Source: Brasilonema sp. UFV-L1 (GTDB taxonomy: Bacteria > Cyanobacteriota > Cyanobacteriia > Cyanobacteriales > Nostocaceae). From it: a DNA stretch of 64,000 nt. The stretch lies in the NCBI RefSeq assembly GCF_012912105.1, contig NZ_QMEA01000001.1, positions 1 through 64,000 of the forward strand. The letters are read 5' to 3'. The position numbers were made by a program, and so were the translations under genes. The stretch's first letter is position 1; each line of letters opens with the position of its first letter. Under the pieces are notes generated by a model. The model was not told where the DNA came from. It did no database searches and worked only from the letters and a program-made list of their open reading frames with translations. Below are positions 9,848 through 13,188 of this stretch, piece after piece.

Positions 9848-9991
9848 TACAAAAGCAACAAACCTTATCAAAAAGCGCGGGGTTATTGGGAATAATCTCA
9901 AGATTATTGAGAAATCCCGCGCTTTTTGATAACCAAGGGCGAGAAATCGTCGTTTTCAAACCTAGTAAATAAAAGGTTTGTTGCTTTTGTA
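9848..9991. repeat. Compound nested inverted repeat, MITE-like (144 bp)
   Basis: Three inverted repeats are stacked inside one another. An 18-bp perfect outer pair starts TACAAAAGCAACA (9848-9865 with 9974-9991). A 17-bp perfect middle pair starts TTATCAAAAAGCG (9865-9881 with 9916-9932). An inner AATAATCT/AGATTATT pair lies at 9891-9898 and 9901-9908. No gene is encoded. The structure fits a miniature inverted-repeat element or the fold of a structured RNA. Confidence 0.8.
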
Positions 9992-10237: not shown

Positions 10238-10330
10238 ATGATCACAAATGAACTTAATATTAGCCTAGTTCGTTTGGCAGATGTTGTGAGGAAAAAAGGG
10301 AAATTACTATTCAGTCATAAATTAACATAG
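10238..10330 (+). CDS. Possible 30-residue small ORF before a terminator
   Basis: An ATG-initiated frame of 30 codons (beginning MITNELNISLVR, with a basic VVRKKGK segment) ends 18 bp before a good Rho-independent terminator. The ribosome-binding site is weak (GGATCGAG) and I recognise no family. Position before a terminator is the only positive evidence. It could equally be chance within a noncoding transcript. Confidence 0.25.
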   Translation: MITNELNISLVRLADVVRKKGKLLFSHKLT

Positions 10331-10347
10331 GCACCCTAATTAAAAAC

Positions 10348-10383
10348 AACCACCACTGGACAATTTGGTGGTGGTTTTTTATT
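10348..10383 (+). terminator. Rho-independent terminator
   Basis: AACCACCAC (10348-10356) pairs with GTGGTGGTT (10368-10376) around an 11-nt loop and is followed by a run of T. It implies that a transcript ends here on the plus strand, about 570 bp after the ycf35-like gene and 500 bp before psaB. The sequence 10069-10148 upstream also contains several pairing segments (for example AAAATCCTTT with AAAGGATTTT). Confidence 0.8.
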
Positions 10384-10691: not shown

Positions 10692-10885
10692 GAGTCAAGT
10701 GGACGAGCGATAGTTGTATTGATTAGCACAGATTTTTGTAACTTAAGTCTCTGACTTTAGGAGGGATTTTGAAAAGACGCAAGGTAGATAGTATGAAAAA
10801 GACTGTTTTTTCAATTGCATCGTGTTGTTAGCTCATTAAAACTAGCAACCTGAATTAGTGTTTAGAGAGGATGTTTGTAAAATAC

Positions 10886-13114
10886 ATGGCAAAAAAATTT
10901 CCTAAATTTAACCAAGATCTCGCACAGGATCCGACAACACGTCGGATTTGGTACGCGATGGCTATGGGAAATGATTTTGAAAGTCATGATGGCATAACTG
11001 AAGAAAATCTTTACCAAAGGATTTTCGCGACTCACTTTGGTCACGTGGCAATCATATTCCTGTGGGCATCTAGCCTGTTGTTCCACGTAGCTTGGCAAGG
11101 TAACTTTGAACAGTGGATGCAAGATCCTGTTCATATTCGCCCAATCGCCCATGCAATATGGGACCCCCACTTCGGGAAACCAGCAATAGATGCTTTTACC
11201 CAAGGCGGCGCTAACTATCCAGTAAACATTGCTTACTCTGGTGTTTACCACTGGTGGTACACCATTGGTATGCGGACGAACAATGACCTGTACATAGGTT
11301 CAGTGTTCTTGTTGCTGTTAGCAGCATTGTTCTTGTTCGCTGGTTGGCTGCACTTGCAGCCCAAATACCGTCCTAGCTTAGCTTGGTTTAAGAGTGCAGA
11401 ACCCCGTCTAAACCACCACCTAGCAGGTTTGTTTGGTGTTAGCTCTCTAGCATGGGCAGGACATTTGGTTCACGTAGCAATCCCTGAATCTCGTGGTATT
11501 CACGTTGGCTGGAATAACTTCCTGACGACTCTACCACATCCACAGGGATTGGGACCATTATTCTCTGGTAATTGGGGTGCCTACGCTGCGAACCCAGATA
11601 CAGCGAACCATGTGTTCGGGACATCTCAAGGTGCAGGAACCGCAATTCTGACATTCTTGGGTGGCTTCCATCCACAGACTGAATCGCTGTGGCTGACGGA
11701 TATGGCACACCACCACTTGGCTATAGCAGTCATCTTTATCATCGCCGGTCACCAATACCGCACCAACTTTGGGATTGGTCACAGCATTAAAGAGATGCTT
11801 AACGCCAAGAACTTCTTTGGTATCCAAACTGAAGGTCAATTCAACCTGCCTCACCAAGGGCTGTACGACACCTACAACAACTCTCTGCACTTCCAGTTGT
11901 CTATTCACTTGGCAGCGCTAGGTACTGCTCTTTCCTTGGTAGCGCAGCATATGTACGCTTTGCCTCCTTATGCCTTCATCGCTAAGGACTACACAACCCA
12001 GGCATGTTTGTACACTCACCATCAGTACCTAGCTGGTTTCTTTATGGTTGGTGCTTTCGCCCATGCTGGAATTTTCTGGGTGCGTGACTACGATCCAGAG
12101 CAAAATAAGGGTAACGTACTTGAGCGAGTCCTAAAGCACAAAGAAGCGATTATCTCTCACCTGAGTTGGGTTTCTCTTTTCCTGGGCTTCCACACTCTGG
12201 GATTGTATGTCCACAACGACGTAGTTGTTGCTTTCGGAACTCCTGAGAAGCAAATTCTGATTGAACCAGTGTTTGCTCAGTTTATCCAAGCTGCTCACGG
12301 TAAGGCACTGTACGGCATGAATGTACTGTTATCCAATCCAGATAGCATTGCACACACTGCTTGGCCTAACTACGCAAACGTGTGGCTACCAAATTGGCTG
12401 GATGCGATTAACAACGGTACTAACTCCCTGTTTTTGACCATTGGTCCTGGCGATTTCTTAGTTCACCACGCGATCGCTCTAGGTTTGCATACCACGACAC
12501 TCATTTGTGTGAAGGGTGCGTTGGATGCCCGTGCTACCAAGTTAATGCCCGACAAGAAGGATTTTGGTTTCACCTTCCCTTGTGACGGTCCTGGTCGTGG
12601 TGGTACCTGTCAAACCTCCTCTTGGGAACAATCTTTTTTCCTTGCTATATTCTGGATGCTTAACCTTCTTGGTTGGACTACCTTCTACTGGCACTGGAAG
12701 CATTTAGCAATTTGGCAAGGTAATATCGCTCAGTTCAATGAATCTTCTACCTACCTTATGGGCTGGCTGCGCGATTATCTCTGGGCTAACTCAGCTCAAG
12801 TCATGAATGGGTACAACCCCTTCGGTACAACTAATCTAGCTGTTTGGGATTGGATGTTCCTCTTCGGACACCTAGTTTGGGCGACAGGTTTCATGTTCCT
12901 CATCGCTTGGAGAGGTTACTGGCAAGAGTTGATTGAAACTCTTGTTTGGGCACACGAACGCACTCCATTGGCAAATTTAGTGCGCTGGAAGGATAAGCCT
13001 GTTGCTTTGTCCATCGTCCAAGGTTGGTTAGTCGGTCTGACTCACTTCACAGTTGGATATATCTTGACCTACGCAGCATTCCTCATTGCCGCAAACGCTG
13101 GTAAATTCGGTTAA
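10886..13114 (+). CDS. psaB: Photosystem I core protein PsaB, orphan divergent paralogue
   Basis: A PsaB (P700 apoprotein A2) polypeptide of 742 residues when started at MAKKFPKF (ATG 10886), matching the family length. An upstream in-frame ATG at 10871 would add five residues but leaves no room after GAGAGG. PsaB with PsaA binds P700, A0, A1 and FX in thylakoids. FX ligands are present (C566 and C575 in [12 protein letters not shown]), as are the many ligand histidines and the P700-side histidine H662 in FLFGHLVW. No psaA precedes it, unlike the usual psaAB operon. Substitutions relative to my memory of canonical PsaB include VWDWMFL for VWAWMFL (D655), TCQTSSWE for TCDISAWD, and IVQGWLVGL for IVQARVVGL. 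It is therefore probably a PsaB2-type alternative subunit. Confidence 0.93.
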
Positions 13115-13148: not shown

Positions 13149-13188
13149 TTCCCCTCTAACTGGATAGTACAGAGGGGAATTTTTTTTG
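13149..13188 (+). terminator. Rho-independent terminator of psaB
   Basis: TTCCCCTCT (13149-13157) pairs with AGAGGGGAA (13171-13179), followed directly by eight T residues. It lies 35 bp after the psaB stop and indicates that the gene is transcribed alone, without the next MFS gene. Confidence 0.9.

Follow-up and report, generated by a model that had tools for sequence, protein, structure and literature searches.

The window analysed here, a 64,000-nucleotide stretch of the Brasilonema sp. UFV-L1 genome, encodes on its forward strand a full-length PsaB-type protein of photosystem I, which belongs to the class known as PsaB3 (Table 1). No internal stop interrupts its 742 residues. With the NCBIfam psaB equivalog model, the full-length product reaches 1506 bits, above the cut-off of 922, and the psaA model gives it 632 bits, under its own cut-off of 863. 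An alternative in-frame ATG lies upstream at 10871; the start was set at 10886 on the basis of homologues and of the leader model described below. The closest relative is a gene of Brasilonema bromeliae (96% identity), from which the window gene differs with dN 0.024, dS 0.27 and dN/dS 0.09; the window gene is under purifying selection. The earlier note had claimed a terminator of its own for the gene, and a terminator-like hairpin beyond the stop codon is followed by a T tract (-15.4 kcal/mol, z -2.3, with 6 of 200 shuffles equally good). This hairpin is absent from the list of the consensus terminator scanner, probably because the loops allowed by the scanner are restricted to 3–8 nt.

Table 1. 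Features of the psaB3 locus in the window. Counts refer to rows of the PsaB alignment
Feature	Position	Strand	Remarks
Conserved leader	10814–10885	+	Match to model R1 at 10814–10888, ending on the start codon; 81.6 bits
Inverted repeat in leader	10824–10849	+	Arms 10824–10833 and 10840–10849; possible RNA hairpin or operator
psaB3 coding sequence	10886–13114	+	742 aa; ORF translation, profile, homologues and dN/dS
C541 codon	12506–12508	+	Near-invariant mark: C in 46/47 PsaB3, L in 90/90 standard
FX ligand loop, C566 to C575	12581–12610	+	Both Cys in 137/137 rows
Q576 codon	12611–12613	+	Position of T. elongatus PsaB Asp575; Q in 47/47 PsaB3; D in 88 and E in 2 of 90 standard
Inserted Q582 codon	12629–12631	+	Present in 47/47, absent in 90/90; rows sorted by this insertion
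D655 codon	12848–12850	+	Lineage-level variation, towards lumenal end of helix j
H662 codon	12869–12871	+	P700-side ligand His; H in 137/137
A674 codon	12905–12907	+	Beside W675 (T. elongatus Trp673); A in 12/47 PsaB3 and 2/90 standard (mostly Ser)
W714 codon	13025–13027	+	W in 47/47 PsaB3, R in 90/90 standard
Terminator-like hairpin and T tract	13149–13187	+	9-bp stem, then eight T, 3' of the stop

No NtcA box (GTAN8TAC) occurs within 300 nt of the window gene, and one was found near -290 in two of the eight genes scanned. When the six proteins neighbouring the gene in the window were compared with 23 PsaB3 loci, none matched at E 1e-5; the flanks covered 1.5 to 6 kb, less on some contigs, and the window itself served as positive control. 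Upstream of psaB3, the window also holds a long inverted repeat (9855–9943), whose only microRNA matches are sub-threshold and probably spurious, and a hairpin with a T tail (10348–10376) that lies within a weak, sub-threshold NsiR1 match (10328–10382; 20.9 bits against a gathering threshold of 39).

Four PsaA/PsaB-type matches were found in the source genome assembly (8.3 Mb in 337 contigs, 99.5% complete): the window gene, one psaA and two standard psaB genes. The psaA lies on contig C142 and is followed there by a standard psaB cut at residue 558 by the contig end; the second standard psaB is complete on contig C87, with no psaA in the 993 upstream bases present on that contig. The earlier note was therefore right that no psaA adjoins the window gene, the sole psaA-type match being on another contig, and that the gene is a second kind of PsaB alongside standard copies rather than the only PsaB of its genome. 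The two standard genes (L131 on C142 and L130 on C87) share 98–100% identity in some 50-codon windows and 68–75% in others; this patchwork is suggestive of gene conversion. Another assembly of the genus (G004:C1:7189837-7192009, L119) has a psaA-linked psaB broken into two frames and a second standard psaB that is whole.

The name PsaB3 comes from PMC10694217, which defines the class by a Gln insertion and other changes beside FX and a phylloquinone; PMC4582080 describes the same protein as PsaB2 of Nostoc punctiforme. We gathered 215 PsaB reading frames (165 distinct) and kept the 137 that were full length and started with M; the 28 dropped were mostly PsaB3 truncated by short loci. Sorted by the inserted Gln, the alignment comprises 47 rows of the PsaB3 type and 90 standard rows, a sample enriched for PsaB3 because the searches used the window gene or its C-terminus. 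Besides the insertion, Q576, W714 and, nearly without exception, C541 mark the class, as derived in this alignment rather than from a published definition. The Q582 insertion and the Arg-to-Trp change at 714 come in addition to the features first noted in the window gene. Those features hold up: the stretch TCQTSSWE is present, C566, C575, D655 and H662 were confirmed in the translation, with D655 seven residues before H662, and the changes near FX (Q576 and the inserted Q582) prove to be a hallmark of the class to which the gene belongs. In the tree, the window gene groups with other heterocystous PsaB3 in a PsaB3-only set of 27 rows (SH-aLRT 100). Judged by its sequence, the gene is an ordinary member of this already described class, whose protein originally went by the name PsaB2 in Nostoc punctiforme. 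The PsaA sequence inspected alongside these rows also has a Gln after the second FX Cys; a PsaA-like loop length was considered as a mark and rejected, the PsaB3 stretch being one residue longer than those of PsaA and standard PsaB. A DNA pattern around W714 was left unused, as it was too loose and matched 307 of 389 genomes. In the assembly of Fischerella muscicola PCC 7414, a stretch of some 220 bases splits psaB3 at around residue 480 (L040, 4087–4306).

In PMC10694217 and PMC4582080, which relay Magnuson et al. 2011, PsaB3 of heterocystous cyanobacteria shares with the window gene the Gln insertion and the changes beside FX and phylloquinone; there, as here, it is a psaB in excess of the one psaA of the genome. 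Compared with that account, D655 and A674 are additions of the window gene; in the present data the class also occurs beside psaA without a standard psaB, and many orphan members share a leader. PsaB2 of the FaRLiP response, to which PMC10694217 states that the third paralogue is unrelated, is likewise described as a PsaB paralogue able to replace PsaB in photosystem I; its gene cluster also supplies a dedicated PsaA, whereas the source genome has its one psaA on another contig. Standard PsaB (e.g. PDB 6jeo) shares the full-length family, the FX cysteines, the P700 histidine and the Trp673 position, but has an acidic residue (D or E) at 576, lacks Q582 and carries R at 714. Among 175 PDB matches, the best is a standard PsaB, and no PsaB3 name occurs among the 60 of them that were listed, of which two were aligned.

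In the reading of the earlier note, D655 would be a buried acid close to P700 that alters its redox potential and sets apart a special photosystem I. The residue is real, and in the alignment around H662 it corresponds to A644 of Synechocystis PsaB, whose neighbours W643 and W645 lie in a hydrophobic pocket of the crystal structure (PMC3171458). A674 accompanies it in 6 of the 11 rows (out of 137) that carry D655, an association that is not significant (median p 0.5). Against a role at P700, the same paper reports that the mutants W643C/A644I, W645C and S641C/V642I grow photoautotrophically with photosystem I activity approaching that of the wild type and that the rate constants with plastocyanin are comparable in magnitude (5.4 in W643C/A644I, 8.6 in the wild type). 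According to its authors, these changes lie relatively distant from P700 and nearer the lumenal side, and cysteines in this lumen-facing region can be labelled; A644 is changed to I within W643C/A644I, and A644D is not among the mutants. The position also varies within PsaB3 (A in 33, D in 6, G in 3, S in 3 and N in 2 of 47 rows) as it does in standard PsaB (A in 75, S in 6, D in 5, G in 2, N in 1 and T in 1 of 90), and D at this position requires seven changes on the tree. As D is carried by 6 of 47 PsaB3 and 5 of 90 standard rows, it was rejected as a mark of the class; the condition on which the earlier note would give up its reading, D655 being common in standard PsaB, holds only in part, through those five rows. 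Since the A644-equivalent position, towards the lumenal end of helix j, tolerates W643C/A644I, P700 tuning by D655 is unlikely, and a special photosystem I defined by this acid strikes us as highly improbable. To the class changes, D655 and A674 add variation at the level of lineages; D655 is probably incidental, and the changes that define the class sit near the iron-sulphur cluster. Three Rhizonema loci (L061, L063 and L068) contain two tandem psaB genes with D at the 655 position and a standard FX loop; these adjoin psaA in L061 and L063, and further pieces are separated by N runs.

A DNA pattern spanning Q576 to Q582 matched 28 of 389 genomes of the source strain's order, with zero matches for its reversed control; these 28 carriers are a lower bound, as the pattern misses some members (e.g. 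G125). In a protein search of the 27 carriers besides the source genome, PsaB3 adjoined psaA and no standard psaB was found in 5 of the 28 carriers, namely G215 (2 contigs), G180 (3 contigs), G410, G162 and G192, while the operon psaB copies of the other 22 were typed only in part. Outside this sample, the same arrangement was found in Scytonema hyalinum (G011/G059) and in G060 and G062, which are metagenome assemblies whose completeness is not known; at L055, seen as a locus alone, PsaB3 adjoins psaA. PsaB3 appears to be the only PsaB in some related cyanobacteria, an arrangement beside psaA of which we found no description in the literature searched. Genes for photosystem II-type reaction centres are full length in G215, G180, G410 and G011; fragments accompany one full copy in G192 and are all that was found in G162. 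PsaA changes tracking the PsaB3-only genomes amounted to a few shared residues (8 rows against 66, uncorrected for kinship) and were not used. PMC8908432, PMC7940658 and PMC6614487 held no helpful information here.

These genomes bear on when PsaB3 is used. In a model that PMC4582080 ascribes to Rutherford et al. 2012, PsaB3 is an anaerobic form tuned to the heterocyst, and according to PMC4582080 the protein is present in the heterocyst proteome and less abundant in heterocysts of an uptake-hydrogenase mutant. The same source reports transcription in vegetative cells too, and 10 of the 28 sampled carriers lie outside the source strain's family; moreover, most of the 5 of 28 carriers in which no standard PsaB was found have full-length photosystem II-type genes. 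We consider such heterocyst tuning unlikely. The earlier note had proposed a variant photosystem I for particular cells or conditions. In favour of this, transcripts rise about 2.5-fold in far-red light in one strain (PMC6424891) and fall 2.2-fold after a C/N shift in PCC 7120, in the latter case like other photosystem I genes; against it, PMC10694217 describes expression as apparently constitutive where the gene is present, and some genomes have no other PsaB. Because some related genomes appear to run on PsaB3 alone, the most likely role of PsaB3 is that of a variant for general use, not restricted to heterocysts.

Three genomes hold two PsaB3 genes. In G180, 3 of 2214 bases distinguish the orphan ORF from the operon ORF, yet the 300 bases upstream are only 27% identical (ungapped) and identity also ends just past the ORF, which by sequence is what an ORF-wide copying event, in either direction, would leave. 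The duplicates in G410 (94% identical) and G192 (83–86%, with a broken orphan copy) are older than that of G180. Recent conversion between psaB3 and standard psaB within a genome was considered and rejected, as it was not visible at synonymous sites in 18 same-genome pairs. Among the literature matches listed, no title relevant to psaB gene conversion was found. PsaB3 could on this evidence be a redundant spare, equivalent to standard PsaB and kept for dosage or as a partner in gene conversion; the near-identical ORFs at two loci of G180 and the decay of the orphan copy in G192 and G291 would fit. Against such a spare stand three invariant changes retained in 47 of 47 rows and dN/dS values of 0.09 and 0.03 in two PsaB3 comparisons, and we doubt that the class is one.

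Trees of the class differ along the protein. In the full tree, PsaB3 falls into several groups nested among standard PsaB, with five changes, all five forced by supported branches; removal of the 13 class columns gives 11 changes, six of them forced. Residues 1–540 require nine changes (five forced) and residues 541–742 two (one forced). A single PsaB3 clade is rejected for residues 1–540 (lnL 228 lower, p-AU 0.003) and not for residues 541–742 (p 0.76). Without the 13 class columns, the C-terminal part speaks neither for nor against it (lnL 14 lower, p 0.37), and for the N-terminal part of the 27 leader-bearing rows a single clade is not rejected at 5% (lnL 90 lower, p 0.089). The pattern fits one acceptor-side module with exchanged antenna domains; convergence may be the alternative to a single origin with conversion, since it is mostly the class columns that carry the C-terminal signal.

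A shared leader of about 72 nt, which includes an inverted repeat, precedes the start codon in many orphan psaB3 genes. A model of this leader (R1), built from 26 sequences and applied at E <= 0.001, matched 24 of 389 genomes, once each and always at a psaB3 or a psaB fragment: 21 matches end on the start codon of a psaB3, that in G250 ends at the start codon of a psaB that runs off the contig after 87 residues, and those in G192 and G291 precede broken psaB remnants. Training genes account for 21 of the 24 matches, the window leader (the one match in the source genome) among them, and G192, G250 and G291 lie outside the training set. The G291 remnant (L250, 540–820) keeps the leader ahead of a psaB with large internal deletions and an early stop. 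Six other orphan psaB3 genes have weak matches (L041, L049, L210, L011, L053 and L051; E 0.0004 to 0.12), and seven have none (L052, L054, L058, L059, L060, L062 and L071), nor was any found at the operon copies L010, L043, L055, L056, L129, L206, L222, L223, L225, L226 and L227. The link between leader and PsaB3 is not absolute, because an orphan standard-type psaB (L220 in G204) is preceded by a weak match to the psaB3 leader (27.6 bits); it looks as though the coding part had been replaced.

In the leader repeat, 81.9% of cells are paired, a value reached by 1 of 500 shuffles, and slid versions give 15–53%. Only five cells, in four pairs, have both sides changed, and shuffles score as high in 195 of 500 and 57 of 500 cases; taken singly, the window leader is no more stably folded than its shuffles (z -0.74), and Rfam gave no match at 10814–10888 up to E 5. 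The leader may be an RNA or a DNA element. We found no description of it in the literature searched, although it may have been published elsewhere. We tentatively advance the possibility that PsaB3 is a transferable acceptor-side module. An orphan locus with a conserved leader would exchange sequence with the operon psaB by gene conversion and would have overwritten the operon copy several times, producing oxygenic cyanobacteria in whose only photosystem I both PsaA and PsaB have a Gln following the second FX Cys; the leader would be an undescribed, gene-specific cis-regulatory element.

How PsaB3 might act is best approached from Q576. T. elongatus numbering, inferred from the match to 1jb0, is that of the window gene minus 1 before the insertion and minus 2 after it. 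In PMC8575901, the carboxyl oxygens of Asp575 are 2.8 and 3.3 Å away from the nearest water at Trp673, and a prediction is cited by which the protonation state of Asp575 moves the PhQA potential by about 80 mV. Given these data and the Gln at that position in PsaB3, retuned A1/FX energetics, as proposed before, is the mechanism that we infer to be the best for the class. The PsaB3 product would pair with the single PsaA to form a photosystem I with an altered acceptor side. There, the replacement of Asp by Gln after the second FX Cys, the residue that PsaA has at this place, would shift the energies of the phylloquinone and FX, the lengthening by one Gln after the FX Cys and the Arg714-to-Trp change would contribute to the same shift, and the balance between forward transfer and back-reaction would change. 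PsaB3 has been reported in photosystem I complexes of Chlorogloeopsis and L. ohadii (PMC10694217, PMC6424891). Counting against an altered acceptor side, A1 FTIR spectra of L. ohadii photosystem I look highly similar to those of other species (PMC13068159); this photosystem I is said to contain both PsaB forms (PMC10694217). The literature searched yielded no redox or kinetic measurement on PsaB3-only photosystem I. The invariant marks, the intactness of the gene, purifying selection, its unlinked position and the coexisting standard psaB genes are the basis found here, and we judge it likely that this intact psaB3, preceded by a conserved leader of its own, yields a protein that joins the single PsaA in a photosystem I of altered acceptor side.

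According to PMC10694217, the effect of PsaB3 on photosystem I and its photochemistry, and the reason for several simultaneous forms, are still to be resolved. What deserves follow-up is the PsaB3 copies found in the operon, together with the shared leader. Photosystem I preparations from strains with both PsaB forms are mixtures, while PsaB3-only genomes would offer natural pure preparations in which to probe the Asp next to FX, and the leader provides a handle on when psaB3 is used.
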